A DNA stretch of 48,609 nucleotides, taken from NCBI GenBank assembly GCA_030145385.1, contig JAQYVU010000026.1, positions 1 through 48,609 on the forward strand. Reading direction: 5' to 3'. Each line of letters begins with the position of its first letter. Position 1 is the stretch's first letter. This document shows, in pieces, positions 5,901-23,841 of this stretch. The translations under genes and the position numbers were made by a program. Under the pieces are notes generated by a model. That model saw only the letters and a list, made by a program, of their open reading frames with translations, had not been told where the DNA came from and ran no database searches. This DNA comes from Desulfococcaceae bacterium (lineage in GTDB: Bacteria > Desulfobacterota > Desulfobacteria > Desulfobacterales > Desulfosalsimonadaceae).

Positions 5901-6626
5901 ATGAAAAACAACGGAGACCAAACACAGGATAAATACATAAAAACGCTGATGGATATCAGCCGGGCCATCACATCGGACCTGTTCCATGAAGACCTGCTCA
6001 AACTGATTGTTTTGCTGACCGCAAAAATGATCGGTGCCGAGATCTGCTCCCTTTGGCTGATTGATGAAAACGAAAACCCGCCGAAAATCCGGCTCAAAGC
6101 CACCCAGGCAATAGAACCGGAATACGTCAAAGACCGGTCATTAAATCTGGATGAAGGCGTTGTCGGACATGTCGCGACAACCAAAAAACCGCTGGTCATT
6201 AAAAATGTCATGCGCAGCCGCCGGTTCAAAGAAAAGGAAATGGCAAAAAAACTCGGCCTGGTGTCCATGGTGGGGGTGCCGTTAAAACTTCAGAACGAAA
6301 AGATTGTTGGCGTTTTAAATTGTTTCACCTCTGTTTTCTATGATTTTACGGAAACCGAAATCAATGCCTTGACCACAGTCGCCAACCAGGCGGCGGTTGC
6401 TATTTTAAATACGGAACTCATGGTAAAAACCAAGGTTATCCGGGAAGAGCTTGAAGCCCGAAAATTAATTGAAAAGGCCAAGGAAATACTCATGCTGAGC
6501 CGCCGATTAAAAGGCGATGAAGCATATCGCTGGATCCAGAAAAGAAGCATGGACTCGAGGAAAACCATGCGACAGGTGTCTGAAGCCATCATTCTCTCCG
6601 ACGAAATTTTTCAGGAAAGTAAATAA
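5901..6626 (+). CDS. GAF-ANTAR transcription antitermination regulator
   Basis: A 241-residue two-domain regulator. Residues about 15-165 form a GAF sensor domain (MDISRAITSD, IGAEICSLWLIDENE, LNLDEGVVGHVATTKKPLVIKNV, VSMVGVPLKLQNEKIVGVLNC, FTETEINALTTVANQAAVAI). A helical linker leads to an ANTAR RNA-binding domain at about 178-232 (LEARKLIEKAKEILM, GDEAYRWIQKRSMDSRKTMRQVSEAII). ANTAR proteins bind a pair of hexaloop RNA hairpins and prevent intrinsic termination, commonly ahead of nitrogen-metabolism genes. The next gene downstream is a glutamate-synthase-domain gene whose leader shows exactly such hairpins and a terminator (6829-6917), so this protein is very probably its regulator. The ligand sensed by the GAF domain is unknown. 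Confidence 0.9.
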   Translation: MKNNGDQTQDKYIKTLMDISRAITSDLFHEDLLKLIVLLTAKMIGAEICSLWLIDENENPPKIRLKATQAIEPEYVKDRSLNLDEGVVGHVATTKKPLVIKNVMRSRRFKEKEMAKKLGLVSMVGVPLKLQNEKIVGVLNCFTSVFYDFTETEINALTTVANQAAVAILNTELMVKTKVIREELEARKLIEKAKEILMLSRRLKGDEAYRWIQKRSMDSRKTMRQVSEAIILSDEIFQESK

Positions 6627-6777
6627 ACTCCCGGGCTCCCCCTCAAAAAACATTCCATAAAAAAATCACTGCACCGGCTTCAATCCTTTCAGGTACTTTG
6701 GAAAGTACCCGGTAATATTTTTATTTTTTTTACGTGCATCACAAAATCATTTATTTAATATTTTAAAAAAAATTACA

Positions 6778-6806
6778 TTGACAAAAAAAATTAATTAAAC
6801 TAAAAT
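6778..6806 (+). promoter_or_regulatory. Consensus sigma-70-type promoter of the glutamate synthase leader
   Basis: TTGACA at 6778-6783, a 17-base AT-rich spacer, and TAAAAT at 6801-6806. This is a near-perfect housekeeping promoter placing the transcript start near 6812-6815. It creates a leader of roughly 165 bases before the gene at 6980. A strong promoter followed by a leader terminator fits control by antitermination rather than by initiation. Confidence 0.8.
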
Positions 6807-6828
6807 CTGTTTCCTAAAGTTAAGTCAA

Positions 6829-6882
6829 TTTATACAATGGCGTATAAAATTTGGCTTATATATAAACGACAAAGGCGTCTAT
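6829..6882 (+). promoter_or_regulatory. ANTAR-type dual hexaloop RNA hairpins
   Basis: Hairpin P1: UUUAUAC (6829-6835), loop AAUGGC (6836-6841), GUAUAAA (6842-6848), a 7-bp stem. Hairpin P2: GAC (6868-6870), loop AAAGGC (6871-6876), GUC (6877-6879), which can extend by AUA/UAU (6862-6864 with 6880-6882) across a 3-base bulge. Both six-base loops have A at position 1 and G at position 4, the known ANTAR-binding signature. P2's loop and 3' strand are the same bases as the 5' arm of the terminator at 6874, so P2 and terminator are mutually exclusive. P2's basal helix is short, which is the weakest part of the assignment. Confidence 0.78.
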
Positions 6883-6917
6883 TTCCAAGTTAACACTGGA
6901 AATAGATGCCTTTTTTT
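6874..6917 (+). terminator. Intrinsic terminator in the leader of the glutamate synthase gene
   Basis: GGCGTCTATTTCC (6874-6886) pairs over 13 bp, with one G-U, with GGAAATAGATGCC (6898-6910) around an 11-base loop, followed by seven T (6911-6917). It lies between the promoter at 6778 and the start codon, so it must be bypassed for expression. The three A before the stem can also pair with the T-run. Confidence 0.9.
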
Positions 6918-6979
6918 ATTTGAAGGATACAATGGCGTGTTCAAAAACATCTAAATCAAACGTAAACAGGGAGAATAAC

Positions 6980-8632
6980 ATGAGATTTTCAAAAAACAAT
7001 GATGCACTTGGAACAACCAACCGTGGTAATCCTTGCGAATCCAGTCTTTGCACACTTTGCCGGGCAGATTGTAAAGGTAAATGCGAAACATGGCTGTCCA
7101 GCCTGGTAGGCCGTAAACTGCTATACCCGAGAGACTTCGGAATGGTAACCGCCGGCGCCAATAATACAACCCATGTTGGCTGTTCCTATAATAACCTTAG
7201 AATCCAGGGATATGCTTACGGTTCGAACGGCCTGGGCAAAGGATTAACCAATGATCCGGATGACTGTATCTTTCCGAATGTCAGCCTGGAAACCGAGTTT
7301 GGCAATGAAATAAAAACCAAAGCCCGCATTCCGCTGATGACCGGTGCTCTGGGTTCTACCTTTATTGCAGCCAAATACTGGGATTCTTTTTCTATCGGCG
7401 GCGCTCTGTGCGGCATTCCGGTGGTTATCGGCGAAAACGTGGTTGGCGTTGACCGCGAATCCAAGATCGGTTCCGGAAAAAACAAAAAAGGTAAAATCAA
7501 GAGCGCACCGGAACTTGAAAGACGTATTGACGGCTATCTCCGATATTATGACGGATACGGCGCCATCATCGTTCAGCTCAACGTTGAAGATACCCGTAAC
7601 GGCGTTGCGGAATTTGTTGTTGAAAAATACGGCAACAAATGCATCATCGAACTCAAGTGGGGCCAGGGCGCCAAGGACATCGGCGGTGAAATCCAGGTAA
7701 CCAGCCTTGATTATGCGCTTTTCCTCAAAGATCGCGGCTATGTTGTTGATCCGGATCCAAGACTGCCGGAAGTACAAACAGCGTTTAAAGAAGGCGCCAT
7801 CAAATCATTTGCCCGCCACAGTCGCCTGGGCGGAACCAACCTGGATACCGTTGATCAGGTCCGTGAAGATTTCATGAGCAGCGTGGATTACCTGCGCAAA
7901 ATCGGTTTCAAACGAGTTACATTAAAGACCGGTTCCTACGGCATGGAAGAACTGGCCATGGCCATTAAATTCGCAACAGATGCAAAACTCGACCTGCTCA
8001 CCATTGACGGTTCCGGCGGCGGTACCGGCATGAGTCCCTGGAACATGATGCAGAGCTGGGGGGTTCCTTCAATCAACCTGCATGCAAAAGCCCATGAATA
8101 CGCCAGCATCCTGGCTGCCAAAGGCGAAAAAGTTGTGGATATGTCTTTTGCCGGCGGTTTTGCTCTTGAAGACAGTATATTTAAAGCCGTTGCCCTGGGC
8201 GCGCCTTACACCAAGCTGGTATGTATGGGCCGCGCAATCATGATTCCGGGTTATCTTGGATCCAATATTGAAGGCGCACTGCATCCGGACAGAAAAGAAA
8301 AACTTTGCGGAAACTGGGATACCCTGCCGAAAACAGTCAGCGACATCGGCGGCAGCGCTGAAGAAATTTTTGCTGCTTACTTTGACCTTGAGAAAAAAAT
8401 CGGCAAAAAAGAAATGAAAAACATTCCTTACGGCGCAATTGCATTCTACACCATGGCTGACAAACTGGCCTGCGGCCTGCAGCAGCTCATGGCCGGTGCC
8501 AGAAAATTCAACTTAAACCAGATTGAACGTACGGATCTTTTCGCTGGCAACCGCGAAACCGCAGCAGAAACCGGCATTGCCCATGTTTCTGATTACAACG
8601 ATGAGACCGCGCAGAAAATCCTGAACTCATAG
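6980..8632 (+). CDS. Stand-alone FMN-binding glutamate synthase domain protein
   Basis: About 550 residues corresponding to the central/FMN synthase domain of glutamate synthase, without the N-terminal glutaminase domain. The barrel is recognisable by KARIPLMTGALGST, IVQLNVEDTRNGVAEF, ELKWGQGAKDIGGEI, RHSRLGGTNLDTVDQV, LLTIDGSGGGTGMSPW (FMN/phosphate loop) and DMSFAGGFALEDS. A cysteine-rich segment at the N terminus (CESSLCTLCRADCKGKC, residues about 19-35) probably binds an Fe-S cluster. ATG 6980 has AGGGAG 6 bases upstream; an in-frame ATG at 6932 with AAGGA is an alternative adding 16 residues. The glutaminase activity or ammonia source must come from elsewhere. The leader indicates ANTAR-controlled antitermination. 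Confidence 0.85.
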   Translation: MRFSKNNDALGTTNRGNPCESSLCTLCRADCKGKCETWLSSLVGRKLLYPRDFGMVTAGANNTTHVGCSYNNLRIQGYAYGSNGLGKGLTNDPDDCIFPNVSLETEFGNEIKTKARIPLMTGALGSTFIAAKYWDSFSIGGALCGIPVVIGENVVGVDRESKIGSGKNKKGKIKSAPELERRIDGYLRYYDGYGAIIVQLNVEDTRNGVAEFVVEKYGNKCIIELKWGQGAKDIGGEIQVTSLDYALFLKDRGYVVDPDPRLPEVQTAFKEGAIKSFARHSRLGGTNLDTVDQVREDFMSSVDYLRKIGFKRVTLKTGSYGMEELAMAIKFATDAKLDLLTIDGSGGGTGMSPWNMMQSWGVPSINLHAKAHEYASILAAKGEKVVDMSFAGGFALEDSIFKAVALGAPYTKLVCMGRAIMIPGYLGSNIEGALHPDRKEKLCGNWDTLPKTVSDIGGSAEEIFAAYFDLEKKIGKKEMKNIPYGAIAFYTMADKLACGLQQLMAGARKFNLNQIERTDLFAGNRETAAETGIAHVSDYNDETAQKILNS

Positions 8633-22896: not shown

Positions 22897-23841
22897 TTAC
22901 CTCTTCCTTCCTTGTGATGTGAGTGGGATATAGTTTCTTGCAAAATTCGAGAGTTTTAAGGATAGTACCAAAAAAACCTAAAACAATCAAAATATAATAA
23001 ATTCCAAAGCTATAGCTTCTGGCTGAATTTCAAAGTTGCGGAATAGTTAAAGCCGGCAGTAATGCAAAAAATTTCAGCAGTGCACACTATCGATAAGTGC
23101 GGCGTGAAGTCGCTTAAAGAGATATTTTAATTGCCTAACAGAAATATAGAACCCGGCATTCTGCTGCCGGTATCCTACCGAAATATGCGTGGCGAATAAT
23201 TGCCGGTTGTGAAGCTTTCGGGAAAAGCAACCTTCGGGGTAACCCGGGAGAGGGCTTTGTGAAAGGACCTCAACTCTGCCAGCACCGCACGGTGGAAAGG
23301 AGCAGGGATTGAGTCGTATGATGAACAGTGGTTCATTCGGTGAGGGATTAAGGTATAATATCCCCTGAATTCAATTTTTCCCCTTGTTTTCATATTGATC
23401 AAAAGCTATATAATATACACTATTGCTATTAAAAGGGGCTATGCATGTCTATTTTCTCTCCTATAAAAAGATTATTTGGGGAGGGTTGTATCGTCTCCTA
23501 AATCCCTCCGTTGGTGGATCTTGAACCAGCGATTCAAAGGAAACGGCCGTGCGCTGTGAAAAATCATCTTGCAAATCTGTCGCACATGAAAAGAAGTTGA
23601 CGAGATCTGAAAAGTATTCTTTTAAAATTTTGTTGATTCAGTCCAAGCTTGTCGAAAAACATTTTAGCATCAATTCCCCATAAAATTATGTCATCTAAAC
23701 TATTGCGATTTAGATATAAAAATAGTAAATACATCTCTAAGATACAACTTCAAGAACATTGAAATAAGATTTAATATAACTCTTTTTGAATTATGGTTCC
23801 ACGGTACGTCAATTAATAACCATAAAATAAGGAGACAGGCA
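22897..23841. other. Gene-free stretch of nearly 1 kb
   Basis: It separates the helical-repeat protein from the plus-strand lipoprotein and marks the start of a scarred region. It contains the structured-looking 23175-23360 segment listed separately. A 49-codon open frame on the minus strand ending at 23472 includes an HSARPFPLNRWFK stretch that looks protein-like but is not one I can name. Composition shifts from AT-rich to GC-richer and back. Confidence 0.4.
23200..23360 (+). other. Possible degenerate group II intron 3' segment
   Basis: GGTGGAAAGGAGCAGGG is followed by GAGTCGTATGATG, a short hairpin (ATGAAC/GTTCAT around AGTG) and TTCGGTGAGGG. This resembles the domain V/VI end of bacterial group II introns, which usually read GAGCCGTATG...CGTACGGTTC. 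The lower helix does not pair well, and no reverse transcriptase frame is nearby, so at best it is a decayed remnant. Confidence 0.25.

Follow-up and report, generated by a model that had tools for sequence, protein, structure and literature searches.

Leader architecture and proposed mechanism

Our results suggest that the glutamate-synthase-domain gene at 6980..8632 is very probably governed by an ANTAR-target transcription antitermination switch, run by the GAF-ANTAR sensor encoded next to it. The window, by which we mean the whole analyzed stretch of 48,609 nucleotides, belongs to a genome of 5.24 Mb in 209 contigs, and the leader with its two flanking genes lies on the forward strand. The ANTAR reading of the leader was first made from the sequence alone and is now supported by comparison: 64 of the 87 distinct leaders of orthologues share the layout, the P1 helix covaries, a covariance model finds the leader in other genomes, and its presence follows that of ANTAR genes. 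The anatomy, its conservation, the P1 covariation, the partner gene, the co-occurrence with that partner and the conserved RNA-contact residues were observed directly.

Under our model, RNA polymerase would start a few bases after the −10 element and transcribe two hairpins, P1 and P2. Unless something intervenes, the P2 region would refold as the terminator (6871-6917) and end transcription. Once the neighboring regulator detects its ligand through the GAF domain, its ANTAR domains would bind both hexaloops, of P1 and of P2, by contacting A1 and G4, and would probably do so as a dimer. The bound protein would hold P2, block the terminator and thereby let the gene at 6980 be transcribed. Binding by the ANTAR protein, read-through and the direction of the response are what we infer from these sequences.

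The sequence-only reading had described a TTGACA-N17-TAAAAT promoter, a P1 hairpin with a 7-bp stem and the loop AAUGGC, a P2 hairpin with the loop AAAGGC, and a 13-bp terminator with seven T that excludes P2. Nearly all of this stands. Every part of the promoter is present at 6778..6806 (−35 TTGACA at 6778-6783, −10 TAAAAT at 6801-6806, a spacer of 17 nt), with 11 of 12 matches. The promoter scan by itself proves nothing, because it found 2 promoter-like sites in the 401-base region, against 1.7 expected from shuffles. Among the orthologous leaders, 17 of 63 have promoter-like sites with at least 10 matches in the 75 nt that precede P1, against 2.3 expected from base shuffles.

Sequence and folding agree on P1 (6829..6848), whose 7-bp stem (6829-6835/6842-6848) closes the loop AAUGGC at 6836-6841; folding lengthens the hairpin beyond a 2-nt bulge to 15 pairs. 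P2 (6868..6879) reads GAC-AAAGGC-GUC, with the loop at 6871-6876. It has only 3 pairs (GAC/GUC) and alone folds no better than shuffles (z −0.6). The leader is hence a dual-hairpin one, with two six-base loops on stems of at least 3 pairs (7 and 3), and both loops have A1 and G4, as had been claimed.

The intrinsic terminator (6871..6917) and its seven T (6911-6917) are there too. What had to be corrected is the 13-bp stem, which consists of 17 consecutive pairs, G-U included (arms 6871-6887/6897-6913). It folds at −24.5 kcal/mol with a z of −9.6, and the stretch 6815-6920 reaches a z of −7.5. A consensus terminator scan did not find this terminator, because its loop of 9 lies outside the range of 3-8 that the scan allows. 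P2 and the terminator are mutually exclusive, because the terminator's 5′ arm begins on base 1 of the P2 loop. The same start was found in 59 of the 64 orthologous leaders with the layout, searched from −2 to +3 around base 1.

The gene behind the leader starts at ATG 6980, preceded by a probable ribosome binding site, GGGAG, at 6969..6973. An in-frame ATG at 6932, inside a third hairpin discussed below, was rejected as the start codon, since it is not conserved in the orthologous locus L034. The protein has 550 amino acids and carries a partial Pfam Glu_synthase match confined to residues 295-422 (E = 2.9e-13, 50.2 bits against a cut-off of 20.4), which bears out the earlier description of a stand-alone FMN synthase-domain gene. 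It has no NCBIfam match and no PDB sequence match at E 0.01. The amidotransferase and GXGXG parts are absent from it according to Pfam, and a search of the genome for a partner amidotransferase gave only weak separate matches. Hence, we speak of a glutamate-synthase-domain protein, as a full glutamate synthase is unsupported. In 2 of 70 loci, a 900-amino-acid protein is encoded downstream that has a GXGXG part and an amidotransferase match below the cut-off.

Conservation and covariation

Homologues of the gene occur in 61 of 98 genomes, its own included, and further loci came from named genomes (80 kept of 461 found). The closest named relatives are Desulfobacteraceae MAGs, with at most 96% identity. 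From the 110 other loci with the gene, 18 duplicates and 5 with less than 150 nt upstream were removed to give the 87 distinct leaders. One locus (L001) was omitted as a repeat of the window.

The strict search accepted a leader only if it had A1 and G4, closure by a C-G pair, 24-50 nt of spacing and a terminator that overlaps; it missed the layout in 23 of the 87 leaders. In the 64 leaders that have it, the P2 loop is AAAGGC in 44, the P1 loop is AAUGGC, AAAGGC or AACGGC in 46, and the two loops are 28-49 nt apart. Because A1 and G4 are imposed by this rule, the search was repeated with any loop allowed. A hexaloop hairpin then precedes the terminator in 72 of the 82 leaders of at least 300 nt, and the hairpin at the P1 position has A1 in 63 and G4 in 59 of these 72. 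The hexaloops with A1 and G4 are thus conserved among orthologous leaders. Some leaders hold more than two hexaloop hairpins. Four (L081, L085, L087 and L091) have three before the terminator, and L030 has two successive hairpin pairs (AATGGC/AACGGC, then AGCGGC/AGCGGC) before one FMN-domain gene.

For the structural model we used 49 of the 64 leaders, leaving out 8 with a spacing outside 28-40 nt and 7 irregular ones. Pairs form in 93.5% of cells (82.0 in shuffles), both sides of a pair change 65 times (17.5 in shuffles), and covariation is 0.430 against 0.177; none of 500 shuffles reaches the observed pairing, changes or covariation. The pairs covary beyond slid controls as well, and the signal sits in P1. 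The three inner pairs of P2 never vary and hence carry no covariation signal, while its fourth pair fails in 21 of the 49 leaders.

Co-occurrence with ANTAR genes

A covariance model built on P1-P2 finds a single significant site in the window's own genome, the leader itself (E = 7e-11). The other places there have E values of 2.0, 6.4 and 7.8, with 150 of 4035 first-look candidates scored; the first resembles, by eye, a stretch within a 979-amino-acid frame at L156. Three model matches were judged false: those at the loci L156 and L165 fall within long frames, and the one at L164 has no visible terminator. Across the 98 genomes, 57 have matches at E ≤ 0.1. Upstream sites, at most 500 nt away, were found for 34 of the 38 homologues with at least 78% identity, many of which served to train the model, and for 11 of the 23 homologues with 45-58% identity, none of which had a part in the training; G079 and G074 have less than 150 nt of DNA before the gene.

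With a cut-off of E ≤ 1e-3, 45 of the 98 genomes have both the leader and an ANTAR gene, 4 have the leader only, 9 the ANTAR gene only and 40 neither. The Fisher p of 6e-14 is only a guide, because the genomes are related. The four genomes with a site and no ANTAR match are G006, G008, G018 and G066, of which G008 is 98% and G018 97% complete. In G008 (L157 and L199) and in G006 (L158 and L041), leaders stand on two neighboring genes with no detectable ANTAR gene; contigs may be missing, or another regulator may act. Six of the nine ANTAR-only genomes, none with a site at E ≤ 0.05, were examined. G076 has an AAUGGC/AAUGGU hairpin pair after its GAF-ANTAR gene, which the covariance model missed; in G015, G053, G087, G093 and G094, the 450 nt that follow the regulator hold no dual hairpin with A1 and G4.

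The regulator is often close by. In 29 of the 61 named-genome loci with enough DNA, a GAF-ANTAR gene lies within 1.3 kb upstream (26 on the same strand, 3 on the opposite one), and in 32 it is absent. In a sample of 395 genomes across the phylum, 34 have sites at E ≤ 1e-3. The leader, as far as model matches tell, is scattered widely in the phylum and is absent, or missed, in most sampled genomes. A tblastn panel run on 26 newly found phylum loci, two of which come from genomes already in the 98-genome search, detected a GAF-ANTAR gene at 17 loci and an FMN-domain gene at 22. At L193, a dual-hairpin leader with terminator (E = 4.5e-5) stands before no gene of the target panel.

One could also argue that the terminator, though genuine, acts constitutively or belongs to some other kind of attenuation, and that the hexaloops are incidental. 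P2 is indeed weak by itself, and binding of the leader by an ANTAR protein is a prediction. However, hexaloops and P1 pairing are conserved and recur before different genes, and the presence of the leader tracks that of ANTAR genes, which makes this alternative very improbable. The ANTAR switch itself has points against it: the four leader genomes without an ANTAR gene, the five ANTAR-only genomes without such a hairpin pair, the 23 leaders that the strict search missed, the 32 loci that lack a GAF-ANTAR gene nearby, P2 with its 3 pairs, often failing fourth pair and invariant inner pairs, and four residues that differ from the RNA contacts of EutV. The variable distance between the P1 and P2 loops, 28-49 nt, also counts against it, given that, in the available text of PMC8934654, a linker 20 nt longer abolished the action of EutV.

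The regulator

The gene directly upstream of the leader, at 5901..6626, encodes a GAF-ANTAR protein of 241 amino acids, just as the sequence-only reading had it; Pfam finds GAF_2 (2.9e-19) and ANTAR (1.2e-17, 63.9 bits against a cut-off of 27.3). Downstream of it the inverted repeat GGTACTTTGGAAAGTACC (6692..6709) is followed by a T-rich stretch, a possible candidate for the end of the regulator transcript. The AF2 model of the monomer (mean pLDDT 84) has a GAF region, a long helix at 151-201 and then helices at 205-219 and 223-240.

The RNA contacts that the available text of PMC8934654 describes for EutV include Arg142, Lys143, Lys147, Lys149, Tyr164, Met172 and Arg175. In a gap-free mapping, which assumes that the numbering of chain and paper differs by two, as the residue letters suggest, these correspond to R187, K188, K192, K194, Y209, M217 and R220, so that 7 of 11 contacts are identical. 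The others differ (Glu160 to G, Arg168 to Q, Asn173 to D, Arg177 to T). R187, K188, K194, M217 and R220 are invariant in 25 sequences, the window protein and 24 orthologues; K192 and Y209 vary among them. In the GAF domain, C49 and C141 are invariant in the same 25 sequences, which may point to redox or metal sensing.

The genome encodes two ANTAR proteins. The second, at C39:141042-141722 (L002, L169), is also a GAF-ANTAR protein, 48-49% identical to the first, and one could ask whether the leader is an ANTAR target that answers to a protein of this kind instead of its neighbor. This seems very improbable. At each of the seven contact positions where the window protein agrees with EutV, the paralogue has another residue (R187 to H, K188 to S, K192 to Q, K194 to R, Y209 to D, M217 to I, R220 to C). 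Furthermore, searches with queries other than the paralogue gave two GAF-ANTAR matches in only 2 of the 98 genomes (G000 and G069), and two ANTAR domains are present in 4. From its residues, the paralogue is probably not an RNA binder of the EutV type; it is possibly a partner or a decoy.

Least credible of all is a small-molecule riboswitch or a leader-peptide attenuator that needs no protein: the leader does sit before a biosynthetic gene and has a terminator, but its conserved part is two small hexaloop hairpins and no Rfam family reaches threshold in it. Neither ANTAR nor any riboswitch family is found there at gathering or permissive thresholds, and the best sub-threshold match is rliE, with 25.6 bits against a cut-off of 90.

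What would the GAF domain of the adjacent regulator sense? The structure model shows a GAF fold and does not indicate a ligand. By sequence the closest domain is the GAF of PtsP (EINtr), 3ci6, which Foldseek ranks second with the GAF model, after the HD-GYP protein 4mcw and ahead of the NifA GAF 8jrc at rank 36. The best NCBIfam match of the regulator is NifA, with 52.5 bits against a cut-off of 528.85. According to the available texts, the EINtr GAF binds glutamine (PMC4848567) and the NifA GAF binds 2-oxoglutarate (PMC8219145). With these two among the nearest GAF domains, a nitrogen-status metabolite is a guess by analogy that we would give an even chance; it is a guess because many other GAF domains, including cyclic-nucleotide binders, score similarly.

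Other genes behind the same leader

The same leader stands before several other genes. Directly after a GAF-ANTAR gene and the leader, gdhA follows at L146 (Pfam, NCBIfam) and at L151 and L160 (from the N-terminus), and gltB has the leader after a GAF-ANTAR gene at L154 (Pfam). In the window's own genus and family, a long protein with a GXGXG part and an amidotransferase match below the cut-off has it, identified by Pfam at L157 and by reading at L155, L158, L159 and L163, with E values up to 0.02. At L150 the leader precedes a 391-amino-acid gene without Pfam or NCBIfam match, then an FMN-ferredoxin gene, and L152 and L162 look the same by reading; the N-terminus of the 391-amino-acid protein looks like a class II amidotransferase. 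The leader is also found before glnK at L184 (tblastn) and before mvhD-metV-metF at L147 (Pfam), L188 and L196 (tblastn; L196 only to metV), by reading at L148 and L161, and in part at L153. The metVF operon, for methylene-tetrahydrofolate reductase, is the sole target outside core nitrogen metabolism. In the window's own genome, the covariance-model search gave no second site before other target genes that reaches significance. That one leader precedes different glutamate-forming enzymes (the FMN-domain gene, gdhA, gltB), often after a GAF-ANTAR gene, suggests a portable regulatory cassette.

Relation to known ANTAR systems

Pelobacter carbinolicus is a member of the Desulfobacterota. PMC3369931 established the ANTAR dual-hairpin motif and, in its available text, predicts ANTAR targets on nitrogenase units of P. 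carbinolicus and on glutamate synthase genes of Desulfotomaculum reducens. RNA motif and theme are common to these predictions and to our leader; genes and organisms are different. Because glutamate synthase leaders had been predicted, we regard the leader as a further example of known ANTAR switches and not as a new system. The earlier claim that such a leader is little described therefore holds only for GAF-ANTAR proteins as regulators: as of 2020, NasR and PAL were the two characterized one-component ANTAR proteins (PMC7496416, available text), and the literature surveyed, seen partly in excerpt, names no characterized example of the GAF-ANTAR sensor type. No paper was found that joins ANTAR with Desulfobacter or sulfate-reducing bacteria in a search that most subscription papers lay outside. 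The window offers what appears to be a clean pair of regulator and target for GAF-ANTAR proteins.

The eut leaders of Enterococcus faecalis, as the available texts of PMC3369931 and PMC8934654 describe them, likewise have two A1/G4 hexaloop hairpins, bound there by an ANTAR protein, and a second hairpin that overlaps an intrinsic terminator. Unlike EutV, a phosphorylated response regulator, the window protein is a one-component GAF-ANTAR protein and a predicted binder, and the regulated gene belongs to glutamate synthesis. NasR with the nasF leader of Klebsiella oxytoca (PMC7496416, PMC3369931, available texts) likewise combines a one-component sensor-ANTAR protein, nitrogen genes and a leader terminator; its sensor is a NIT (nitrate) domain, whereas ours is a GAF domain.

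A possible third ANTAR site

Another aspect of the leader is a third hairpin, P3 (GGATAC-AATGGC-GTGTTC, 6925..6942), with a 6-bp stem and the loop AAUGGC. Lying 3′ of the terminator, it is present only in read-through transcripts, and its function is putative. Among the 64 leaders, 13 have an A1/G4 hexaloop hairpin with a C-G or G-C closing pair after the terminator, where shuffles give 0.35. Applied upstream of P1, the test finds 4 against 1.3; in three of those four (L081, L087 and L091, two of them named Desulfatitalea), an additional hexaloop precedes P1. The 13 leaders are not independent, as 7 come from the window's own genus, 4 are Desulfobacula-like, and L037 and L030 contribute one each.

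All seven own-genus leaders keep P3 with A1 and G4. Of nine own-family leaders with P3, 8 have A1 and 8 have G4, L036 and L038 each breaking one. L089, near the Desulfobacula-like group, is without the hairpin. The stems differ between the two groups, and the loop AAYGRN is common to both. Their stems pair in 98.6% of cells, a figure that leans towards structure because the rows were picked as hairpins; L101, L102 and L111, repeats of given rows, were left out of this alignment. Taken as a whole, 6918-6985 shows no folding beyond that of shuffles (z 0.7).

The available text of PMC8934654 puts forward one hexaloop as the minimal ANTAR site. That the leader has three ANTAR sites, with P3 as the third, is a tentative idea that we hold to be somewhat doubtful. 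If it is true, P3 could titrate or recycle the ANTAR protein, a feedback of the switch on its own success; alternatively, it could act on translation or mRNA stability.

Elsewhere in the window, positions 23152-23303 match the group II intron family D1-D4-7 with 92.1 bits.
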